64,000 nt of DNA, from NCBI RefSeq assembly GCF_051622035.1, contig NC_135360.1, positions 12,452,001 through 12,516,000 on the forward strand, read 5' to 3'. This DNA comes from Arctopsyche grandis (taxonomy: Eukaryota > Arthropoda > Insecta > Trichoptera > Hydropsychidae). Position numbers and translations under genes: made by a program. Shown in pieces: positions 6,329-60,300 of the stretch. The first letter of the stretch is position 1. Each line of letters starts with the position of its first letter. The notes beneath the pieces are model-generated. The model ran no database searches, was not told the origin of the DNA, and saw only the letters and a list, made by a program, of their open reading frames with translations.

Positions 6329-6852
6329 TTCGGTGATTACATCCCAAAATTGAATCGCTACCATGATAACCACTGCTACGAAAATCCCTCGCGCGGTCTC
6401 CTGTCGCATGAAAATTCGTTGCGTAGGAAAACTGCCCAAATATCGTAAAAATAAGTATTTGTTGATGATGAGATGTTTCGTGATCGAGATTTTGGTTCGG
6501 TGATTACTAGTCAAATGTGAACCGGTCACAGGACAACCGGTCGCTCTAGATCGGTCATACGTGATAACCCGTCACACTAAAACTGGTCACGAGAAAACTG
6601 GTCACACCCGAAAATTGGTCACGAAAAAACTGGTCACACCCAAAAATTAAAAATTGGTCGAATTTTTGGGTGTGACCAGTTTTTTCGTGACCAATTTTCG
6701 GGTGTGACCAGTTTTAGTGTGACGGGGTGATCACGTGTGACCGATCTAGAGCGACCGGTTGTCCTGTGACTGGTTCACATATGACTAGTAGTCCGTTTAC
6801 CGAGATTTTAGTGACTTGCGCGAGATCGCTTTTTGAGGAATAATCACCGAAC
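6329..6852. mobile_element. Fold-back MITE with TTCGGTGATTA ends and a nested palindrome
   Basis: The outer ends are TTCGGTGATTAC (6329) and TAATCACCGAAC (6841-6852). The left interior has GCTACGAAAATCCCTCGCGC, shared with the element at 11098-11312. A second GTTCGGTGATTA at 6495 abuts a separate perfect-looking palindrome (6506-6789) that splits the outer element. Confidence 0.7.
6506..6789. repeat. 284 bp palindrome built of GGTCAC mini-repeats
   Basis: It starts and ends with ACTAGT. The arms contain repeated ACTGGTCAC/GTGACCAGT units and the pair GACAACCGGTCGCTCTAGATC / GATCTAGAGCGACCGGTTGTC. The two arms meet near 6647 at an AAAATTAAAAATT spacer. It is nested in the TTCGGTGATTA element. 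Confidence 0.85.
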
Positions 6853-7112: not shown

Positions 7113-9254
7113 ATGGAGTGCAGACTTTGCCTGTGCTTTGCTTCACCAGAGGCTCTCGTCTCCATCCACGACGATCGTCATTCACAGCATTTGGTGCAAC
7201 GCATTTGGACCTGCAGTCGTCTGCGGGTTAGTTATACATAACTCATTGCTATTACCAACTCATTAACCCTCGCAATCATTATTATTCTTGTCATTTGTAG
7301 GTTTTGAAAGGTGACCATATGCCAGATATGATATGCCATTCGTGTGTCAACAATTTGGAATTGCTTGACACCTTTCGAAACGCTTGTCTTCGGAGTGACG
7401 AAACGTCGAGGATGAGATCAGACAAGTCTTTGGATGTCAAACCGGAGGAAGTTTTGCTGGAAGATTTAATATGGGAAGGCGAGTTGGATGCTGATTTACC
7501 ACCAAAAATTTCTGGTTCACTAAACAATGGCGAGGTAAGTTAACATGATTTGATTCCAAACAAAACATAAATTTAATTATAGTGGTTTTAAATTCATCTG
7601 TAAACATAACTAATCAAACCATACTATAAATTTTAAGTTTTATAATTAATGAACTAACGTTTTGCTTATTTTGTAGACATACAAAGGAAAAATCGCTTCA
7701 GACGACAACAAACCAGAAATGAAGAATACCAGCAAAGAATTGACACAGACAACATCTAATACTCAATATATGTTTAACTGTGATATATGTTCAAAGTCAT
7801 TCATTAAAAAATATCACTTTGTGAGACATATGAACCGCCACTCTGGAGAAAAACCGTTCAAATGTGATATTTGTTTAAAATCATTCAATGTAAAATTTGA
7901 CCTTGGTTTACACATGAGTATTCATAGTGGGGTAAAATCACACAAATGTGACGTTTGTTTAAAATCTTTTGTTCTAAAACGTTACCTTTTGAGACATAAG
8001 AAGCGTCACTGTGGAGAAAAACTGGTCAAATGTAATATTTGTTTAAAATCATTCAATACAAAATTTGACCTCGGTCTACATATGAGTATTCACACAGGAG
8101 TAAGACCACACAAATGTGATATTTGTTTAAAATCATTCACCCAAAAAAATAGCCGTGTGAGACATTTGAGTCTCCACTTTGGGGAAAAATCGTTCAAATG
8201 TGATATTTGTTTAAAATCTTTCAATACAAAGTCTTACCTCATCATACATATGAATATTCACAGTGGGGTAAAGCCTCACAAATGTAACATTTGTTTAAAA
8301 TCATTCACTCAAAAGTCTTCACTTGCAACACATTTGAACCATCACACTGGATACAAGCCACACAAATGTGACATTTGTCTAAAATCATTTTTTCAAAAAT
8401 ATTTTCTTGTAAGACATATGAGATTCCACTCTAAAGAAAAACCATTCAAATGTGAGACATGTTTAAAATCATTTATTAAAAAATCATCACTTGCAAGGCA
8501 TTCAAAGTCTCACACTGTCGACAAGACACATAAATGTGATATTTGTTCGAAATCATTTGCTCACAAATATAGCCTTGTTGAACACAAGCATACTCATATT
8601 GGGCTAAAGGCACACAAATGTGACATTTGTCTAAAATCATTTGTCCAAAAATATTACCTTGTGAGACACATGAAATACCACTCTGAAGAAAAGCCGTTCA
8701 AATGTAACATTTGTTTAAAATCATTTATTCAAAAAAATTTACTTACAAGGCATTTGAAAACTCACACTGGAGACAAGACACATAAATGTGATATTTGTTC
8801 AAGGTCATTTTCTCATAAATATAACCTTGTTGCACACAAGAATATTCATACTGGGGTAAAGTCATACAAATGTGATATTTGTTCAAGATCGTTTTCTCAC
8901 AAATCCAACCTTGTTGTACATATGAGTATTCATACTGGGATAAAGCCATACAAATGTGAATTTTGTTTAAAGGCATTCATTCAAAAATCATTACTTGCAA
9001 CGCATTTGAACTCTCACACTGGATGCAAGCCACACAAATGTGATATTTGTTCGGGATCATTTTCTCACAAATATGACTTTGTTGCACACAAGAATATTCA
9101 TGCTGGGGAAGGGCCACACAAGTGTGATATTTATTCAAGATCATTTTCTCACGAATCTAATCTTGATGTGCCCAAGAATATTCATACTGAGGTAAAGCCA
9201 CACAATTGTGACATTTTGAGACATATGAGACATAACTCTGGAGAAAAACCTTAG
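7113..9254 (+). CDS. ZAD domain C2H2 zinc-finger protein
   Basis: Three exons in phase 0: 7113-7226, 7301-7534 and 7677-9254, giving 641 residues. The N-terminal zinc-finger-associated domain uses Cys3 and Cys6 (MECRLC) and Cys50 and Cys53 (ICHSC), the C-X2-C pairs that bind zinc and mediate dimerisation in this arthropod family. An acidic linker (EEVLLEDLIWEGELDADL) follows. Exon 3 encodes 16 regular C-X2-C-X12-H-X3-H fingers with TGEKP-like linkers, nearly all containing the KCDICLKSF core. A 17th finger has lost a Cys (Cys to Tyr) and a His (His to Pro), and the 18th is reduced to a stub before the stop. The family acts in the nucleus as DNA-binding transcription or chromatin factors; the target is unknown. 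The ATG is preceded by no other in-frame coding sign and gives the ZAD exactly at the N-terminus. Overlapping minus-strand frames are shadows of the finger repeats. Confidence 0.94.
7756..9250 (+). repeat. Tandem 84 bp zinc-finger-coding repeats
   Basis: Within exon 3 the AAATGTGATATTTGTTTAAA-type unit recurs every 84 bp, about 17 times, with high nucleotide identity. This suggests recent duplication or gene conversion among fingers. Confidence 0.85.
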
Positions 9255-43334: not shown

Positions 43335-44874
43335 ATGAATTTGAAAATAATCATTTTATATTTAATAACTTTCGTAGTAAGTACTTTTCGTTTCTTACTT
43401 TTTTAGTAATGAATGTATATTATGAAAATTAATCCACTTACAAACTTTTTTTTCAGGATTTATTTGCTGTGGGTCTTGTTGTGCCGTTGATTAGCTCTCA
43501 TGTAATATCTCTCGGCGGAACTCACTTTATAGTCGGCCTTATGGGTTCCTTTTATTGTGGATTACAATTATTTTCAGGGCCGATACTGGTAAAACTGCTT
43601 TATCTAAAATTGTTTTACATTGTCTTAAATCCTTTCAACGTTTAATTTTTTTAGGGGAGTTTGAGTGACGTGAATGGCCGAAAGCCTGTGCTCATTGTAA
43701 CATTACTTTGCTGTAGTATTGCCTATTTTTGTTTCGGATGTATATCGTCTATATATGTATTATTATTTCTTCGCATGGTGCTAGGTAAGTTTGGCGTTTT
43801 TGAAATACACACTATTAAGCAGAAATTCTTATTACATATAATCTAATCAATTGCAGGTGTGTTTAAACATACGCAAACGTTATCAAAAGCCTTTGTTACG
43901 GATATTGTAAAAAGTGATGTGCAATCAGAAGTTTATGGTAAAATGGCAGCTATATCTGGTGTAGGTATAACTTTAGCACCAGTAATCGGTGGACACATTT
44001 CTGAAGACTATCCTGATCATGGATTTTTAACGGTTTGCATGATAACATCAATTTTGTTTGTAGTAAATGCAGGTAGGAATTAATTATTTTGTTGAAATAT
44101 TTTATTTTATATTACTTCATTACTTTTTATGACTTTATTTCAGGCTTGGTTTATGCTATTAAAGGCAATAAAAACGATACTCGGGAAACATCAAAGTCAG
44201 ATGTTGCAGTAAAAAACATAAATTATTTACAATTAATCAATAATAGTTGGGCTAAATCAATCAAGGAATTAAAAGACATAGATTGGTATACATATTGGGA
44301 TGCTTTTCTCCTAAAAGGTCTTGTAGGTTTTAGTATGAGTATTTTCCACTCTAATTATTCACCGTTACTTAAAATAAATTACAACCTGTCTCCAAAATGG
44401 ATTGGATATACAATATCTTTTCAAGGTGTAGTCGGTTCATGTTGCAGTTTCTTCATTGACTATTTAAATAACAAGTTCTATAAAAATGACAAAAACTACA
44501 CTCAAAGAAACTTGCATTGTTTTGCAGCGCTGACATGCACATTTGCAATCATGATAATTTGCAACCAATGGTACTTGTTTGTCTTATTGTTAATACCGAT
44601 AGCCACGGCAAATGCTATTTTGAGATTAATCACATTAGAGATGATTGTTAGAAAGTCATCTGAAAAGCATAGAGGATCCTTAATTGGCGCTGCAAATAGC
44701 GTTCGATCAATTTCTGGTATCATCGGTCCGTTTGTAGCCGGATCATTAGCGGATTTAGTAGGTGTTAGATATGTTTTGATAGTTTCTTTAGTGTCTGCCA
44801 GTATAGGATTTGCGATCGCTCGAAGTTATAGGAAGAGTGATAAATACATTAAAATAGACAAGAAAAAGAAATGA
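43335..44874 (+). CDS. MFSD9: MFSD9-type major facilitator transporter
   Basis: Five exons: 43335-43376, 43457-43588, 43655-43784, 43857-44072 and 44144-44874, about 416 residues, with canonical GT-AG borders and consistent phases (0, 0, 1, 1). The ATG at 43335 opens the first membrane helix. Exon 2 gives DLFAVGLVVPLISSHV, the exon 2/3 junction gives the MFS motif A in the loop after helix 2 (GSLSDVNGRKPVL), exon 4 has IFKHT-type VFKHTQTLSKA and the GVGITLAPVIGG helix. The C-terminal half repeats the fold and carries a second motif, GSLADLVGVRY. These blocks match the vertebrate MFSD9 pattern as I remember it. The family are 12-helix secondary transporters in endomembranes or plasma membrane; the substrate is not known. 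The C-terminus is Lys-rich. It is convergent with PET100, about 0.5 kb apart. Confidence 0.92.
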
Positions 44875-45369: not shown

Positions 45370-45618
45370 TTACTGTTTATTCTTCATTTCGTGTTCTTTG
45401 ATAGCTGCCGCAAGTGTTTCTTGTTCTTTCTGACGCAAGAATAATTTAGTGTTTTTTAAAAGAATTTTATCTGATTCTTTCTCTGGTGGGTACATTTCTC
45501 GTTTGAAGTTAGTAACCCACCTTTCAAAATAAGCTGGTTGATTAAACAGGTGGAATGCAACGACGGGAAATGCCATATACAGAGACATTCTCAATATTTC
45601 CAAATGCAGTCGCGCCAT
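45370..45618 (-). CDS. PET100: PET100, cytochrome c oxidase assembly factor
   Basis: An uninterrupted 82-residue frame from ATG at 45618. The upstream in-frame part has no ATG, so this start is firm. The N-terminus MARLHLEILRMSLYMAFPV forms the membrane anchor of the family, followed by the conserved FNQPAYFERWV segment and a basic, then charged helical C-terminus (LFLRQKEQETLAAAIKEHE) ending KNKQ. Length and layout match PET100 of animals, which sits in the mitochondrial inner membrane and helps assemble complex IV. TTGATCTAG just before the ATG could be a splice acceptor for a 5-prime UTR intron. Confidence 0.92.
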   Translation of the reverse strand: MARLHLEILRMSLYMAFPVVAFHLFNQPAYFERWVTNFKREMYPPEKESDKILLKNTKLFLRQKEQETLAAAIKEHEMKNKQ

Positions 45619-47129
45619 GTCTAGATCAATATAAAAAATAAATAAATTCAAGTTTTAAAATCGAATAAAAACACCGAGAAGTAAAAGAAAAGGTATAAAC
45701 CTGATAATTCACTATTGCAATTTTGACAACTGACAGTTCACCTACTGCTAGTGTTATTTTTCTTGATCTTCCCATAACAACAATATTTATGACCATATGC
45801 TATGTTTTGATTTTTATTGATTGTGGTTTTAACATTTGCAAACATAGAAATGCGTATCTATTTTTATACTGTGTAAAGGTAAACATGTAAAAAATAAAAA
45901 AAAAACATTATTTTTCGTAATTTTTTAGAAATTCACGAAATACCAACAATATATCATATCTATCATAAAAAATGAAAGGTTTGTATAAATGATAATATAT
46001 GTATTTATCATTTCAAAGCTAATAATTTTTTCAAATCATTCAAAAATTCACGCACATACATATATTTCCATATATTATAAGTCACAAGTTAAAGAAGTAC
46101 AATAATTTTTCGTTATCTGCAACAATATGTTCCATGTAATATTTTTTCTCTTTAACATGTCTTACTTTCTAATACAACTTAATTGTTTTAAATTATAATA
46201 TAAATTGAAAATATACACATCTATATTATTATTTTAATTGCCAGTTTTGTAAGTGGTATCTCAAGGTTAATGTAGAACTATCTCAACGGATCAATTGAAT
46301 TATGATTGTTGTACAAAACTCATGACCAATAAAAAAACCCATTTTTATGTATCCTATTCCTTATAGGGGTGGACCATATTAATTGGTTTAATCTGTACTA
46401 CATAGCTATACTAACTTTAAAATCCAAGTCCCAATTATGTACTGCAGATCTGATAGATCATTGCGGTCTTTCCCTTTTTGGGGGCCCCAAAATGGGTCTT
46501 TGCTACCAAAATTTATAACTTATAAATCATTATCATTGTCCACAATACGTTCGTAAGCAAAGAATAAATTAAAATATTACCTATCTTACATAGTAATTTA
46601 AAATAGTACCTATTTTATTCCAAAAATTGTCAGCGTTTCAAGTACATATAGTAAATAAATAAAAAATATGCTTTTGTAAAATCCTAATGAAAAACCATAT
46701 ACTGAAAAACATGGTGAAAAACGACGATAGCATTTTTTTTGCTGAAGTGGGGGCCTCAAATTTTAAATGCGCTCGAACCCCCTATTTACTTAACCCGTCA
46801 CTGCATGTACCATACATATATTTTTGCAAAATGTGAAAAATTTATATTTGTGAATGGCTTAATATGAATCTAGGATAAAAAATTGATAACTTGTATATAA
46901 TGGATTTTTTTTACAATTGTATATACATATGAAGAGATGCTGAAAACAATAAGTGGTTATTAAAAAAAAATCTGAAAAAACTTGCAGCGTTTCTGTTATC
47001 ATCTAATATTGCGATACTAAGATAATATTATAGTAAGCAGAAAAAAATATATTATTCGAGTTCAATAATGAATAACATTTCAATAAAATTAACCTGAAGA
47101 TGCTTGGCACATATTAATTTCAGGTTTTT
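45619..47129. other. Spacer with unclassified repeat-like pieces
   Basis: AT-rich. At 46740-46806 GGGGGCCTC and GAACCCCCTATTTACTTAAC followed by CCGTCACTG resemble a hAT-type end, but no matching opposite end was found. No gene seen. Confidence 0.4.
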
Positions 47130-48071: not shown

Positions 48072-48078
48072 TATAAAA
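48072..48078 (+). promoter_or_regulatory. TATA box of the RPRFamide-like gene
   Basis: TATAAAA in ATATAAAAAG about 30 bp before the presumed start of the non-coding first exon (about 48103-48120), which ends at a GTGAGT donor at 48164. Confidence 0.55.
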
Positions 48079-48102
48079 AGAATCGACTGGAAACATTTTT
48101 AA

Positions 48103-49163
48103 TAGTACTGAAAAGGGTTCACGTGCGGCATTAACTGTTGTTCAACTGATTATTTTATTGCAAGTGAGTAATTCAATAGTATTTCTTTATAAAATCTCTT
48201 GATCAATATACAGTTTACTTGATTTGTTTTCTGTAATTTTATAGGATTAAAAAAATGGCCAGTCGAATATTGCTTCTAGTACTTCTTATATCTATAATTT
48301 CTGCAACACTCACACTTGCTTCAGAGTATGAAGACTGGCCTGAAGATGTAGTCGTGCAAAATATTCTGAAAAATCATTTGATATCAAACCTGCGGTACAC
48401 TTTTTATCTTAATTTTGTAACTATATAATACACATAAAATTTTTAATCACATTCCAACATAAATTATATTTTGCTCTTAAGGTTGCCACCAAGTTCTTTT
48501 ATTTTTTTAAGAAGGTAGATATCATCATACAATTTATCGGCATCTTATTCTACATTTACGTATTTTGTGGCATCTTAACATTTTCGGTATTTCAAATTTT
48601 CGTTCTTAAGATTAATTACTGAAAAAATATTTGAACCGACTAACCGGCAAGTAATCAGTAGTCTTTATGTATACCTTCGTAGCCTCAATAATAAAGTTTT
48701 GTACACAAGATATCGCCAGAAATTTCGTACACGAGATATGAGCCACAAAGATCTTTAATTCTTTTTACGCTTTGTATACAGCTATGAATTTCTAATATAC
48801 AATTTTATTTATTTTTATAATTTTGTGGGGATTTACTACATATTCGGAGAAATAACACTCAAAACCCGGAGCCCAGATACAACAAGCTGAACCCCGGAGA
48901 TTCCGGGTCAAAATCATAGGGGGTGGCAACCCTAATTTCTCTGGTTTTAAAATATTTACAATACCATTCATTAAATATTTGCAGCGTTTTTTTGTGACGT
49001 AACTCACTGAAATAGCGTTCCGGCACTTTTTATTTTAAAAATTGTTTTATTTTTGTATGCGCTCTGAGACATCTGAGAAGTTGTTTTAAATTTAATTTAA
49101 ACTATATATCAATATATAATTTTCTTTAATAAAAGTTTGATGAGAAATGATTGTTTTAGAAAA

Positions 49164-49259
<96 letters not shown>

Positions 49260-51243
49260 TTTTGATAAGTTGCATTCAATATGGATATATGATTTTAATT
49301 TGATAGTTGCATTCAATATTTGTTCAAAATTTAAATTGTAATATTTTTCTATATAATTTTATAAATAAATCTTATGTTTAGTATGAAAGTACCTACATAT
49401 GTATACAAGGCTTTTTTAGAAGGCTTTTCTATTTTTGTCATGTGACGCAATAGAATGGCGTTCCAGCACCTTTTTTCATAGTATTTTTAATGTTTCAAAA
49501 GCAATTAGACGAAACTATGTTCGCGCGTATAATATAATGATATTCCATATATGTATTTACATAACACTGTTCGACAAATGACGAATTTTTTTTTGGTTCA
49601 GAGACAAGATATGACTTTTCTTATAGATCTATGCCCAGTGAACACGAATCTGGTAATAAAAAATGTTGATTGACTCGAGCTTCAGAGATATATGTGTTTT
49701 TTAAATCGCGCGATTTTTCTATATCTTGGTGTTGTTCGGTCGATGTCTCAAAATCTGTCAATTTCCTGTTCAAAATGAATATTGGAATCTATAGTCGGGT
49801 ATTTTATCGTTCATTTGTAGTACTTTTCAGCTTTCAAATCTCTCTAAGTAGTCGTCAAGTTCAAATCAAAAGTCAAAAGTACGTATTTTCACTTGGGATA
49901 ACTGGCTTACCTCGATAAAATAAACGAATTTTTGTTATTAGTCCCCTAGAATAGTCGAAATATGATTTTTCTAAGTGGAATTTTATTTAATTCTCATATA
50001 ATGACAATTTAATATATTATCCCTATTCATTCAATTCAGACTCTTGTATGTAAATGCGAGTAAATACGAATCTCGAGCCAATCAACATTTTTTATTACCA
50101 GATTCGTGTTTACTGGCCATAGATCTATAAGAAAAGTCATATCTCGTCTCTGAACCATTTTTCGTATCGAAACGTGTAATTAGTCAAAATGATAAAATAT
50201 TATGTTATGAACCGGATGAAATATGGATGGATTCGAAATTTTGGCGTTCTTAATAGCGTGGCATAGGAAAAGCTGCTTTAAATTTCATTTAAGTTATATT
50301 TGAATATTATTTTCTCTTTTAATAACAAGTTCGGCAACTTTATTATTATTATTATTAATATTGAAAATATAATAATATATATTAATTTTTCTGTCAATAT
50401 ATCGTATATGAATAGAAAACTCGATTAACTGATAAGAAATATCTTATTTTATTATTAATTAATTAATGCATATATTATGTTGGGTACTGTGTGTTACATG
50501 ATAGCATCCTGTTTTTATTGTGATAATTTCACAGAAGATTGCACAAACAAATAACGCCGATAAAACTGTTCAGGAAACATATGTCAAACTTGATGTCAAG
50601 AGGGACGAAATTAGTTTTTCCCCCATTCAAATATATGTACACATACATATGTATCTTCATATGTACATATATGCGCATACGAAATATTTGCAATAAAGAT
50701 ATTCGATTTATAAAATTAATCTGTTTAAATATTTCGTTAGTGCAATGAAAAAATTTATTTTGTTATTTGATTGAATTATTATTTATTTTTATATTTTATG
50801 ATGGTTAAATTCATTGATTACGGATTACATACAACTCTATTATTAACAATAATAATATTTTTATATCAGATTATTGAAAAATCAACTTCCGGCGTATTCT
50901 AAGAATGATAATCCCAATTATTTGACTCGCATGTTGCGCTCTGGAACTCTCAGTTATAGGCCAAGGTACAGTATATTTTTTAATGTGACGTTTTCTTCAC
51001 ATCTTGATGGTAAAATAATGTATTAATTTATGTTGAATTTTTTAGATTCGGTAAGAGGACTCAGAATGATATTTCACACAATTCGTTGAATTCAAAGGTA
51101 TCGTTTTTTTCTCCATTATTCTGATTGTTTGACTTTATATACACATATATTTGAATTTATTGAACAGTTAAAAAAATATTTTTTATTCAATGAAGGAGGA
51201 CTATAAGCTTTCAGAAGAAAATGCTGCATATTTTGGATGGTGA
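48103..51243 (+). CDS. Secreted neuropeptide-like precursor with one RPRF-GKR site
   Basis: Proposed five-exon gene: non-coding exon about 48103-48163; 48245-48394 with ATG at 48255; 50870-50965; 51046-51097; and 51196-51243 with TGA at 51241. All borders are GT-AG and phases agree (2, 2, 0), giving about 111 residues. The N-terminus is a strong signal peptide (ASRILLLVLLISIISATLTLA). The mature part starts near SEYEDWPED. Exons 3-4 give NYLTRMLRSGTLSYRPRF followed by Gly-Lys-Arg, the canonical signal for prohormone cleavage and C-terminal amidation, so the product should end -RPRFamide. No dibasic site lies before it, so the peptide could run from the signal cleavage site (about 57 residues) or be cut at single Arg. 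The intron between exons 3 and 4 splits the codon of the penultimate Arg (AG|A), as in NPY/NPF-family genes. The remainder does not look like typical NPF. If exon 5 is skipped, read-through gives a stop at 51122-51124. I cannot name the family with confidence. Confidence 0.75.
48480..48932. mobile_element. MITE with AGGTTGCCACC ends in the peptide gene intron
   Basis: AGGTTGCCACC at 48480 and GGTGGCAACCC ending 48932 are inverted, flanked by TA on both sides (48478-48479 and 48933-48934), compatible with a TA target duplication of the mariner type. The 71-codon minus frame in its right part (48792-48932) and beyond is not a gene. Confidence 0.75.
49169..49255. repeat. (TA)n microsatellite, about 87 bp
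   Basis: Pure TA array in intron 2 of the peptide gene. The YIYIYI frames are artefacts. Confidence 0.97.
49440..50250 (+). mobile_element. Dispersed repeat split by a palindromic insert
   Basis: The outer pieces match 37985-38190 in order. Between them, 49593-49679 and 50072-50157 are inverted copies of about 87 bp (TGGTTCAGAGAC, TAGATCTATG, GTAATAAAAAATGTTGATTG, CTCGAG). The frame at 49670-49918 lies within this insert and is not called. Confidence 0.75.
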
Positions 51244-51400: not shown

Positions 51401-51406
51401 AATAAA
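51401..51406 (+). terminator. Possible polyadenylation signal of the peptide gene
   Basis: AATAAA about 160 bp after the proposed stop codon, the first well placed signal downstream on the plus strand. Confidence 0.4.
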
Positions 51407-53155
51407 AATCATAATAAAGGTAAATGAAACATTTGGAATTGTTTATTTGTGTATAATATTGAATATTGTGCTTAAACATTTATTTTTTGCTTAACAGGCT
51501 TAGCATGTACATTATATATATATATAATATATGTATATTTAAATTATAAATAAACAGTAATGATTTTTACATCTAAGCTAAACGAAGTTTTTCTTTATAT
51601 ATAAAATTTTATATTCAATTGACACTCTCCATATAAATAATGAGTTGAAAAAACGTCTTAGAAAAACGATAAACATAATAACATGGATAAAAATAGTCTT
51701 ATATCATTTCAAGAATATATTATATGTATGTATGTATGTATTATAATTGATAGTTTATTTTTGTTTAAAGTAGAATTTTTTTTTTTTGTAAAATAAATTT
51801 TGGCACAATATACATAAATTGGTTTTTGACTACAGAATATTTAATTAAAATGTGTCGTCAATTTTAGATTTAAAATGGGTAAGAATGCAATTATTCATAC
51901 AAACATTTTAATAAATGTATCAGATTATGATTTATTTTTCTGAAAATATATGGTTGAATTGAATCTAATTAAATCCATGAAGTTTGTAGTATTTTTTTTC
52001 ACAACCAACCAAAATATTAATTACTATTAAGTTTATTGTATTCTATTATATAAATAAACAAATATTATTTATTTAAACAAGTGTTAAATTCAACATGCTG
52101 TGTGTTGTATTTGAAAATATTAGTTATTATGTTTTTCGTGTGGATTATATTAGTGATTAAATTGGAAGATACATCATTTGGCAAAAATTTTAAAAGTCAT
52201 TGAGATTTATATCTATAAAATCAAATATAGATTAACAGGTTAATTGTAAATGTACATATGTAAATGCGTATAATGTTACACGTATATGTATATACATATG
52301 TTGAATTAAAATAGTATTTCCGTTAACCTGTTAAGATATTTTGATTAATTGTGTGGGAATATGAGCATTAAAAAAATACTTTCATAAGATTCAATTGATT
52401 TTTGATTTGTATTAAAAGTACAGTCATTTTAATCTATAAAAATTTAAGAATATTATTATATAACCTTAATTATATAATTCATTAAAAAATCAGTAAATTT
52501 AATATAAATACATATTGAAAATTGGAATAAAATAAAATGCATACGATATTACAGTTAAAGAGATAATGTTAACTTTGGAAAAAACTTCTTGTTATGTATA
52601 ATAGTTACTAATTTATTCAGGATATTTATTCGAAAAATTAATTGATTAATTTGTATTAATAATAACCAGTTAATTTGGAATCTATTATTTTAATTATAAT
52701 ATCTAATACACTGATTTGAAAGTAATTCTAGTCTACCAAGTATATGATCACTATAAAGACATAGAATATAGAAGAATTAGAAATAGATTAAGTCATTAGT
52801 GTAAGAAGTCGGATGGAAGTTCTGGGGCATTAGCTTTTACATAAGTGTTAAAATAACATCCATAAAACTACATAAATACTACAAGGTAAGTATCCAACAA
52901 GTCTAAATAACAAATAGACACTATAAAGGACCTAATGACAGAAAAAGGCAACATTTTAAAATGCTCAATAAAAAATCTAAATTATCATAGTTATTACTAT
53001 GCTACAAATAAATAAGATTTTTATAATACAAATTTAATACACATGTAAAATTATTAAATAAAAAATAATGTTCCTACAGAACAACAAAATACTTTCCCTT
53101 TTTACTATTTTATGAAAATATATATAAAAAAAATGTAATTATTAAAATGGACATC

Positions 53156-54346: not shown

Positions 54347-57300
54347 TTACACTTGTCTACTACTTAATTTTGTTCCATTTCTATTGAATTTACTGGATTC
54401 TGCCTCTATTTTTTCTTGATTTTTATCCATTTCTATCTGTACAGCTTCTTTAAGCAAGCTCCACAATTCGTTTCGGTCAACTATCAAAAGTTGTTCCTTC
54501 TTATCGGGCAAAAACTTCGATGGTGGAGTTTCTGAAATGAGTCCTAGTGTTGTTTCAGATATTGGCTGCATTGGTGGACGTTGCTTTTCGCGATTAATTG
54601 ATTTAGGAATCTGGGACATCTGATAAGAAGCAGTTTGAACAGTTGAAACTACTTCTTGACTCATCAAAGTAGTTTCATCAACTGGTGATACTTTTTTAAT
54701 AGAGTTTTCAGTTGTAGTTGGTTTTTCTTCAGTAGAAGATAGCTTTGATTGCTTGTTTGTTTCTTTTTTTATTTCATTTAAATGCGAAATTGTAGTCGGA
54801 TTTGTATTATCTGTAGCATTTAATTCATAACTTTTTGTTACTGGTGTATTTGATTGTGTGGTTGGTGGGCTAGTGTTAATAATAACTTCATTAAACTTAG
54901 TTGTTGTTTCGTTTTGTAGATTTGCTGGAGTGTCAGATGATATTGAATAATTTATTTCAGTAGTAGTTATTGTAGTTATTGGCGTAGTGGGTGTTGTATT
55001 TGTAAATGGTTTAATATGTTTCTTCAGCATTTCATGATTTTCCCCATAGGTATGTTTCAGAGTTCCCTTTTTCCTCGTTGTAGGTTGCTTCTTTTGAAAC
55101 GGTTGCTTCTTTTCTATGTCGAATAACATTTTTGCCATATTTGACGTTAGAGGTGGTGTCAATTTTTGTTGTACTACAATTTCATCACCACTTTCATTGA
55201 GCTTAACTTTTTGTATTCCTTTCACAATTTTGTTTTTATCTTGTGAAACGGTTATAGAAGGAACGATGATTGGAATATCATTACTAATATTTTTCAAATT
55301 CTCATTCAAATCACTACTTGAATTTTTGACGGAGACTAATGTTTTATTTTTTAGGTCAATTTTGGGTGGAATTTCTAATTTGTTTGATATTTCAGTAGTT
55401 ATTTCAATTGGTTTTAAATAATTTCTGCATATTTTTCCACATTCACATATGTCAGGCAGATCTTGACCAACATTTGGTATTCCAGTATCAGTTTTACCAA
55501 ACCACGTTATCAAATCATCCTCTATTATTCCCTTAAGTAATGGACTTCCAGGTTTTGTATGGAAAAATAATTCGGCAGCTAAATCTGGACGAGTCGCTGG
55601 ATATATTGTAGCAAAAGCTGGCCGGAGGGAACTCAAAACAAATGTGGATCTAGCTTGATACGTTACACACACTGGACAAGCGGAACTTATCTGAAAAATG
55701 TAACAAGGTGTGATAAATGATGGCATACATATAATAATATTTAAAGAATAAAAATGTTGCAAAAAACTCATTTTGCACTCACATTGGCAAAAGAAAACCA
55801 CACAAAATTATTGCTTGAACCATGCTGTAAATCTGCAAATGACGCTTCTTCTAAAACGACGGGATTCACTGACACAACTTCATAACCTGAGAATAGGGAT
55901 ACTTCAAGTCGAAGTGCACCTGATCTTTCTTGACTTTTCCATCTTGATACAATAATAAATATAAGTGATTAGATATATAAAATTTACTACAAATTATTCT
56001 AACTGAAGCATTTATTCACCTGAAACATGTTTTTATATTCAATGTAGGTAATTTTCCTTGTAATTCTTCCAAGGAACTTCTTTCTGGTCTGATTTCTTCG
56101 ATTACAGCCGACCACAAAGTTAATAGTGCATTATCAGACGATGGTGTATATGCTGAGTATGTTATCCGACCCTATAATAAATAGTATATGTACAAATACA
56201 AATGTAGAAACCTTCATGCACGTGTTTAATTTAAGAAATATAAATATTATATTACCTGTACAGTTGCACAACCAGCTCCGGTTGCATAAACAAACACTTT
56301 GGTTGGTAATGATGGCAAATGTAAATGGCGAGCAGGATGATCAGCTTTTAATTCTACAGTATCAGTAAGCTCCATTCCAGCTGTGGCTAAGGATACTGTT
56401 AATGATCTGTGTCTAAAATAATGAAAGGTCTCTAAAGTATATGCAGTGAGACTATATATATGTACATATATTATGTATCAACATAAAAAATCTTTATGAA
56501 ATATACTAAAATTAAATTTAATTACCTATCATATGCCAAAACTGAGAAAGCAGAGAATGCTTTAACAGCTTGATACAACAATTCAATGTGTTTATCTAAA
56601 ATATGAGATCTGTAGAATAAATATCTGGCAACAGGTTCGGCACTTTGTAGATCTCCCAAAACTGTATATACGGAGAGGGCTTTGAGCGAAGCTTTGAAGT
56701 CTTCTAAGCTTGCTGTAAACATATTATATATTAAAAATAAGACAATGACATTCTCAATAAAATTCTAAAATATAAAACCATACTTAGCACAGGTGGATTG
56801 GATCGTCTATTTGAATCTTCTTCATAGAGCCAATCCGCGTCGCGTCTTGGTAATGGATGCGGCCACCCAAAATCGCCTTCTTCTGTTGTTGAAGCATTTT
56901 TCAATAATTGTAATGCTTCATTCAAAAATGGACTCCTATTTAAATTAGAAAAATATATTAATCAAACAGAATTTGTAATTTTTTAAGAGACTAAGTAAAT
57001 ATAACATACTGAGAAAGTGCTAATGCATAGGTCATCGATGCCAATGGATGAGATGAACTAACGTTGTGTAATTTTTTTTCTAGAAATACTCTTGCGTTAA
57101 TAACGGTTTCCAAATCAAGCTAGAAATTTAATAAAAACGTATGGTTTTAATATTTTTATAGTTTAAAAAGTATACATTCACAATAAGTATCCACTAACAT
57201 CATTTTCCATTCCAATTTCCATCAGAGTGATCAAAGTTTCCGCAGTGGTTTCCACATTTCTTTCTAATTGTAAAATATCTTTAGACAAGTTTTTCCATTT

Positions 57301-60300
57301 TTCAACAATACCGTAATCAAGTTCTTCATATGCATTTAATGATCGTTTGATGTTATTACTGTCAATTTCAATGTCAGTAGTGAACATAGATATTTTTACA
57401 TCGGCCGAAAGCGGTGTAAAGCTTCCATCTTCTTCTTGTCTCATCTGTATCCAATGCTTCATTGATTCAAGAAGTTCAGGATCAACACTAAAGTATGACT
57501 GAATCTTCGTTAAAACTTCCAGAACGTGAACAGTTGCCAAATGACTACTCATGCTTGGATGATCACTAAAGGAATTATCATTTTTTCTGAACGCCAAAAG
57601 TTTTTGTACCTAAAATGAAATTTGATTAAATTTCCAGAAACAAATTGAAATAGCACTCGAAAGGAAATGGAAAACAAACTTGTCCTGGTAATTTTCCAAT
57701 AATAGTTTCGTGCTGAGTGGTGTTTGCGGTATTCAATGCAAACAATGGTGTGAAGACTGAGATTGCAGCTGCGAGGCTGGATGTTGGAGACTTTCTCGTA
57801 TCTTCATCTTCCAATGTCTTGAGAGAATAGCTGATCGGAGATGTCGGTATTGCTAGACCACCGGCGACGAGAAGATCGCCTGAAGCCGTACCAGGAACTG
57901 CCCATCTCGGCAAAGCGAGTTGCACAACTTGTGAGAAACCTGCTTCGTCATTGAAGTTCCACACCCTATAAATAATTTGAGTTTATTTTTAACGAGTAGA
58001 AATTAAAATTATTTTTGTTTGAAACATAATTGATGTTCTTTGTTATACCTGAAGTCAGCTTGATTTCCCCAAGGAGATGAAAAACCAACGTGTCGTACAT
58101 GATGAGCAGCATCCAATTTCCATGCGGCAAGAGTACCGGAAGGAGGTAGAGCTCCTTTACCGGCGGTTATTGTACCTCTAGCCCATGATACCCAAAAGGT
58201 TCTGAATCCACCAGGGGTAAGTGCATTTGTAATTTCACCTGCTGAAAGGTGAACGCTATATCCTGAAAGTGATGAAATAATAAAATTGTTATAATTTAAA
58301 ATGCTTGTACCGGTTTAAAAGCGTCCATTTCTTATTCAAATACTTAAATAATGGGATTAAGTTTAGGGTAGGTCTGTACCCAGCACCGCCAAGCACGGTA
58401 TATTTTTAAATACCAACACGAAAGGGTCGAAGATTAATGTGAAAAATTTTGTAATGTAAAGCGAAAACTTTTTGGAACGAGTGATAAAATCAGAGAAAAT
58501 AAATCAGCGGCGGTTACTGATGATGCAAAGGCAAAATATGCTATTTTGGATGATTGTTTTTGGACATACGTCTTTGGCGCAAATGTGCGGAGTTTTAGCA
58601 TTTTTCTCGACATTTTCCCTTAACAGAACCGGGATAATGAAAACGTCATAAACGGATCTGTCTGAGCCCGGCCGTCGAGAATTGAATTAAAAGTTTCATT
58701 GTTCCGAGTCGAACGGGAAAGAGGAAGCAAAAACTTTTTTCATAAGGTGAGACGCCATCTTATTTACCTGCTTTTTTCGGGAGCCCTTGTATTTTTGTCG
58801 TCCGTTACACCATTTCTAAAACGCTCATTAGACGAAATGAAAAAGGTTCTGGCGGCGTTCCCCCCCCCCCACTTTTGCACGGAGAAAATTCCGATTTTCC
58901 AAATGAGAGTTTGCTTTTTCAAATTGCCCAAAAATGACGCATCAACTTTTATATTCTACCGCGATAATTAAAATTAAAACATCAAATGTCACTAGAGAAA
59001 TCGAAAGAAAATTGAACAGTAATAAGATAATTTGACAAAATATCATATATTAATTGTTGTGAACATAATAGACTAGTGGTTAGCATGTAATGCTTTGAAC
59101 AGAGTGGTCACGGGTTCAAATCCCACTGCTGGCTAGACTTTGGATTTGTGTCTGCAGGTCGATCGTTTCCTCTCAGAGTTTGCCAATTTATCTGATTTTC
59201 ATTGAAACGGTTCCAACAAATTGGCAACCTTATACATTTTCTCGCAAAATATCGAGTTTTCAGTATAAAATACTGAAAATTTACAAATTTGACCATAAAT
59301 GTCTCTGTGGATGTTAAGAGGGCTGGACACCAGCGCCTTGTCCAAACAAACGTATTACACTTCTACCTTCCTCAATTATGGAACTAGATAAATTATTTTT
59401 AAAAATATCCCATGGATATCCACCATTGGCATGCATCTGTGCTTTTATTTTTTTGATTAGTTATTTTTCATATGAGCTAGGAGCCGCTAAACATCTATAA
59501 AATCACCTCTTTTTTAACCTCGATTTTGTCGATTTAAAATACGTATTATCTGGTCGAAGCGCAACTGTCGCGTTCACTCAATATACATATATGTACATTC
59601 ACTCAATATATATATCGAAGAAAGGAATGGCAACAAAATTAAGGTTTCGGATGTACAGCCCTCTTAATTGATATGTATTTACTGAATTTCGCTGAATTGT
59701 TTAAAATGCTGCAAATTTACAAATTTGACCATAGATGTCTATGTGGATTGACATGTATTTATGTACTTTGTATTATAATAATAATATTTGTATCAAATGT
59801 ACAATGTTTCTGGCCAGGAAGGCGCATTGGGGTTATCTGTTAGGCCTCCCTGGTATAAATTAAATATAAAATGAAATAAAAATGTAAAAAATACTAGTAA
59901 TAAATAGCATGAGTATCAAGTTGTGCGACTTCGTTAAGTTGGATTTCACTAAACTTTCAATGAAAGGCTCAATGAAATCTTGAAAAGCCCTTTCATAGAT
60001 TATGCACAAAAGAAAACTTGGTATTCAGTACACTCACCGTGCTGTCCCCTGCCAATCCAAACCAACGAGTTTTCAGCATCTCCAATATTGACATGATACA
60101 TACTATCTGTTGGGCCACGTTCATCTGACAGAGCTATTCTCACCGAATTACCAGCTCTGACTTCGAACACGAGGACTTCCCTGTTTCGAGGAGCGGCAAT
60201 CCATTCATATCCGAACCTATCGTTAGTAGATATCAGAGTATGTTCTAGAAGTTGAAAATTACATGTTAACAGTCATACAAAATTTGGTCAAAATTCAATA

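Follow-up and report, generated by a model that had tools for sequence, protein, structure and literature searches.

A probable neuropeptide F gene with a strongly diverged peptide in the caddisfly Arctopsyche grandis

A small gene for a peptide ending in RPRFamide, located on contig NC_135360.1 (C6) of the caddisfly Arctopsyche grandis, raises the question whether an unfamiliar peptide of this kind represents a new hormone family or an altered member of a known one. The window, i.e. the whole stretch of 64,000 nucleotides that was analysed (C6:12452001-12516000, + strand), served as the source of the gene model, whose boundaries, phases and translation were computed from its sequence; positions below refer to this window. 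Most likely, the gene is an unusual member of a known hormone family and not the founder of a new RFamide family. With considerable confidence it is regarded as a gene for neuropeptide F (NPF, the invertebrate counterpart of neuropeptide Y, NPY) whose peptide has strongly diverged. Family membership is based on the anatomy of the gene and the processed end of its product rather than on similarity of the peptide.

Exon structure and precursor

The model comprises five exons on the + strand, one of them non-coding and four coding, and all introns are bounded by GT and AG. A TATA box (TATAAAAA, 48072..48079), which probably belongs to the core promoter, is situated about 30 bases upstream of position 48103, the gene start given in the initial annotation. 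On these two grounds a putative start at 48103 was adopted for the probable non-coding first exon (48103..48163), which ends at the donor GTGAGT. Exon 2 (48245..48394) contains the start codon at 48255 and encodes the signal peptide as well as the stretch SEYED...ISNLR; it terminates in phase 2 within an Arg codon (CTG CG|, corresponding to NLR|) and holds the position of an NPF1a-type exon. Exon 3 (50870..50965) measures 96 nt, is of phase 2-2, encodes LLKNQLPAYSKNDNPNYLTRMLRSGTLSYRPR| with RPR| at its terminus, and sits where NPF1 genes have the optional NPF1b exon. Exon 4 (51046..51097) completes the Arg codon, contributes Phe-Gly-Lys-Arg for amidation and cleavage together with part of a C-terminal peptide, and ends in phase 0, while exon 5 (51168..51206) provides the end of the precursor (LKKYFLFNEGGL) and the stop codon TAA (51204-51206). 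Two putative AATAAA polyadenylation signals follow at 51401 and 51413 (51401..51418). The G+C content of exons 2-4 is 0.35-0.39 versus 0.27 in intron 2; that of exon 5 amounts to 0.18 and is of no help to the model. An end of exon 4 at 51098 was dropped in favour of 51097, since the frame then stops after 104 residues.

Joining of the coding segments 48255-48394, 50870-50965, 51046-51097 and 51168-51206 yields a precursor of 108 residues, the frame of which is open across the joins (MASRILLLVLLISIISATLTLA|SEYED...GTLSYRPRF-GKR...). Its N terminus is hydrophobic and signal-like, with a cleavage point (after LA) that was set by eye, and is followed by SEYEDWPEDVVVQNILKNHLISNLRLLKNQLPAYSKNDNPNYLTRMLRSGTLSYRPRF-GKR-TQNDISHNSLNSKLKKYFLFNEGGL. 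The precursor carries one amidation site, YRPRF-GKR, in which an RxRF/Y-amide end is combined with Gly and a dibasic site. This site is invisible without splicing, because unspliced six-frame searches for R.R[FY]G[KR][KR], [RK].R[FY]G[KR] and RPRF returned no match in any of the three cases. The claim of the initial annotation that the locus holds a small secreted amidated-peptide gene is borne out by the signal-like N terminus, the single RPRF-GKR site and the open spliced frame, and the splice boundaries that it named (48394|, |50870, 50965| and |51046) are all present with GT/AG ends and clean phases. Neither its precursor length of 111 residues nor its coding end at 51243 could be recovered from the sequence. 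Taken together, the gene model is very probably real, as judged from the sequence.

As a separate observation, intron 2 harbours an inverted repeat (49594-50157) with arms of 90 nt that are 94% complementary and 384 nt apart, which resembles a miniature inverted-repeat transposable element.

Evidence bearing on the family assignment

Identity as NPF is proposed because an Arg-codon intron of phase 2 together with a further C-terminal intron matches the published signature of NPY/NPF genes. In such genes, an intron separates the second from the third base of the codon for the Arg in the final Arg-Phe (PMC7314547, PMC6585902, as far as the portions consulted extend), and another intron in the C-terminal region is likewise described as typical. 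Both features are found here: intron 50966-51045 (exon borders 50965/51046) splits the codon of the penultimate Arg after its second base (CCA AG|gt ... ag|A TTC), and the phase-0 intron 51098-51167 interrupts the C-terminal part. Among the family options of the initial annotation, a divergent NPF is sustained by intron position and phase, whereas a new family finds no support in view of the intron signature. The phases had already been noted there as clean, which holds, but neither the position of the intron in the Arg codon nor the matching phase and Arg end of exon 2 had been put to use.

That the gene founds an RFamide family of its own, without kinship to NPF and with RPRF acquired by convergence, is considered very unlikely. 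It would accord with a peptide body that neither Pfam nor reference scoring recognises, and with the literature searched, in which GTLSYRPRF, LSYRPRF, SYRPRF and SYRPRFamide did not occur, meaning only that the peptide is not printed there; nor did YRPRFamide, YRPRF-NH2, YRPRFGKR, NLRF-NH2 or NLRFGKR. NLRFamide does occur, in two papers, one of which (PMC4237046) deals with LWENLRFamide of the locust gut. On the other hand, convergence would demand two coincidences, namely the phase-2 intron in the Arg codon and another exon that likewise closes in phase 2 in Arg. Moreover, the split motif RPR|gt...ag|[F/Y]G-basic-basic, spanning <=3 kb, is present once in the window and arises in 2 of 300 dinucleotide shuffles, and a looser split RxR motif once and in 19 of 300, although the split motif was picked after the gene had been seen, so that the shuffle figures flatter the gene.

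The RxRF-amide end is shared with short neuropeptide F (sNPF) as well, but an sNPF gene can hardly be credited. Polyneopteran sNPF is reported to end in RLRF and to lie in the middle of its precursor, preceded by the dibasic RK and followed by RR (PMC7179676, in part). Here the end is RPRF instead of RLRF, the precursor contains no dibasic site upstream of RPRF, and KR comes after it; the sNPF arrangement is thus not present. In addition, the Arg-codon intron is described for NPY/NPF genes and not for sNPF in the portions of the sources at hand.

Several observations weigh against an assignment to NPF. Open stretches of phase 2-2 with an Arg-type donor are not rare, since 104 of them exist on the + strand of the window. 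Such an abundance of splice-bounded open stretches, along with the short exons and AT-rich introns, would suit the view that the locus is no gene and that its open frames and splice-like sites came together by chance. Chance is nevertheless highly improbable, because the split motif, the signal peptide, a continuous frame, and promoter and polyadenylation signals combine at one locus; the TATA box, the four GT/AG introns, the intact amidation site and the G+C contrast between exons 2-4 and intron 2 likewise speak against it. A further objection concerns elevenin, a peptide with a disulphide, which was rejected as a candidate, the 108-residue precursor being devoid of Cys. Elevenin genes possess a similar Arg-codon intron (PMC6585902, in part).

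The remaining objections concern the peptide body, which resembles known NPFs weakly. The exon 3 tail, i.e. the 17 residues before RPRF, was scored against six reference rows, of which three were peptides from as many papers and three had been taken out of a single Lysmata paper. It gave a permutation P of 0.057 and a mean score of -2.3, whereas the leave-one-out means of the references all lie higher (11.4 to 40.8); for the corresponding stretch of exon 2, P was 0.74 and the mean score -20.7. The YY common to most NPFs is absent from the peptide, and a Pfam search with the precursor matched 0 families at E <=10, for which there is no control that insect NPFs match the model. In genomes, the Pfam NPY family was detected in none of 14 controls, and the genome searches thus stand without a positive control. 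Helical moments did not decide the matter; they were 0.36 for exon 3 and 0.06 for exon 2, next to 0.49 for the locust and 0.38 for the Drosophila peptide. Six sequence matches in PDB, all of them to Dicer-2 (E 0.53 to 0.77), were taken as chance.

NPF genes can escape similarity searches, as in beetles at first in Tribolium and still in Oryctes (PMC6585902, in part), since an intron divides their conserved end and their body is subject to drift. The present case shows that splice phase may point to an NPF gene where protein similarity does not. For the favoured NPF gene, the transcript would be spliced such that the penultimate Arg codon is completed across the intron, and the signal peptide would direct the precursor into the secretory pathway. 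A prohormone convertase would then cut at Lys-Arg, followed by trimming of the basic residues and conversion of Gly into the amide. The resulting peptide ending in GTLSYRPRF-amide may be released from endocrine cells of brain and/or gut and may act on an NPF-type G protein-coupled receptor in feeding and metabolism, receptor and function being deduced from what is known of NPF (reviewed in PMC6389622, in part).

Copy number and the optional exon

Other NPF loci were sought in the species' own assembly of 475,669,232 bases in 189 contigs. The precursor as query (E <=10) matched the present gene only, in three places that are each one of its exons; no second copy was found. Desert locust NPF1 and migratory locust NPF2 as queries yielded 0 candidates each. 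The pattern [FY]Y-xxx-[AG]RPR|GTR gave one match (C13), which contains an in-frame TGA, as compared with 1 and 1 in the backwards control, and [YF]LQ[ED]L[DE]x[FY]Y gave none (control: 0 and 1); such canonical patterns would miss ends like SRPR or RVR. Among viral contigs, 0 of 30 pattern stretches were confirmed. A single diverged NPF gene fits the species, because neither a second copy nor a canonical NPF1/NPF2 exon was found in its genome by these searches, all of which ran without a positive control for short neuropeptide exons.

As a sub-case of NPF membership, the gene might constitute a lineage-specific NPF1/NPF2 paralogue, diverged or decaying, with the true NPF situated elsewhere in the genome or absent from the assembly. 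Duplicates termed NPF-1 and NPF-2 are reported from all polyneopteran orders (PMC7179676, in part), a third termite copy, possibly a pseudogene, shares the intron site (PMC4237046, in part), and the high divergence of the body would agree with such an origin. A paralogue is still deemed unlikely, given that the two locust queries and two patterns above, run without a positive control, found no canonical NPF and that no damage is seen in the frame, the splice ends or the processing site.

Within the favoured single NPF gene, an in-frame exon of phase 2-2 (50870-50965, 96 nt) is inserted at the Arg-codon intron between NLR| and |F. Between exons 2 and 4 (48395-51045) it is the sole candidate of 60-200 nt, phase 2-2 and Arg end, and the search of this interval revealed no further alternative exon. 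NPF1 genes in which an optional exon sits "between the two others" are described from termite, locust, Bombyx and Daphnia, and the exon is also reported from cockroaches, phasmids, beetles and Lepidoptera on the basis of genes or transcripts (PMC4237046, in part), while an NPF-1 insertion of ~40 residues is viewed as a basic feature of Pterygota (PMC7179676, in part). Exon 3 probably corresponds to the optional NPF1b exon. By its phase, codon and position, exon 2 would be homologous to the NPF1a exon. However, an NPF1a-type first exon ends in RPR and exon 2 ends in NLR; for this reason the gene is classed as NPF1-like in layout and not as a regular NPF1. This distribution suggests that the first exon lost RPR while the optional-type exon kept it.

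Assuming no internal cleavage, the predicted long product comprises 58 residues and ends in GTLSYRPRF-amide. Omission of exon 3 would leave a precursor of 76 residues with ISNLRF-GKR and a predicted product of 26 residues, SEYEDWPEDVVVQNILKNHLISNLRF-amide. These sizes resemble the 28 and 66 residues of the beetle NPFa and NPFb products (PMC13295887, in part). Since RPR is encoded by exon 3 only, a splice switch between two RFamides is tentatively proposed, though it is more doubtful than the family assignment: inclusion of exon 3 would produce GTLSYRPRF-amide and its omission SEYEDWPEDVVVQNILKNHLISNLRF-amide, the NPF1a-type exon having lost RPRF and the receptor-binding end residing solely on the formerly optional exon. 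If so, inclusion or skipping of exon 3 would act as an on/off control of NPF signalling, or would steer it to a different receptor. Should no exon but the optional-type one carry the RPRF end, the gene would provide a natural test of the role of that exon.

Neighbouring features and comparison with known systems

Upstream of the NPF gene, a Pet100-like mitochondrial assembly factor is encoded on the - strand (45370-45651; Pfam E 2.1e-22) and may serve as a synteny anchor. Pieces of a major facilitator transporter lie on the + strand at 43661-44874, with an MFS_1 match for 44089-44874 (E 1.1e-14) and two preceding frames that look like further exons. Exons of a thioester/alpha-2-macroglobulin-like (TEP-like) protein occupy 54347-57597 on the - strand, with a TED domain at 57178-57597 (E 1.7e-6); the part at 54347-55801 shows a receptor-domain match below the curated cut-off (E 0.016), and its frame continues into a long Thr-rich tail. 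A C2H2 zinc-finger frame on the + strand (7719-9254) forms a single open reading frame of 511 residues with 16 C2H2 stretches, its DNA being arranged in 84-base tandem units. At 6579-6723, two adjacent 32-base tandem arrays of related units in opposite orientation resemble the ends of palindromic elements. Scans for Rfam families and tRNAs across the window returned nothing.

Among known systems (all sources cited here in part), the long NPF of the decapod Lysmata vittata likewise features a second stretch, ending in RSRPRF-amide, after an NPF body, but both halves are NPF-like there (PMC7212414). Insect NPF-2 is alike in that its body varies and its PRF-amide end is conserved, whereas no optional exon is described for NPF-2 in the portion of the source at hand (PMC7179676), and the body of locust NPF2 is unmatched by the present peptide. 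Divergent beetle NPFs offer a parallel insofar as their peptide is strongly changed and orthology was accepted with the help of the phase-2 intron; they differ in their RYamide or PYamide ends and a disulphide, while RPRF is kept and Cys is absent here (PMC6585902). As in insect NPF-1 and NPF-2, the peptide directly follows the signal peptide and ends in RPRF-GKR (PMC7179676). Compared with insect NPF-1 genes that possess the optional exon, the first exon closes on NLR and not on RPR, the middle exon has 32 codons instead of 38 to ~40 (PMC13295887, PMC7179676), and the LQELDRYYSQVA body of NPF-1 is absent. The layout, however, is the same: signal peptide and first peptide part reside on an exon ending in phase 2 in Arg, an in-frame middle exon follows, F-GKR is placed on the next exon, and the last intron lies C-terminally.
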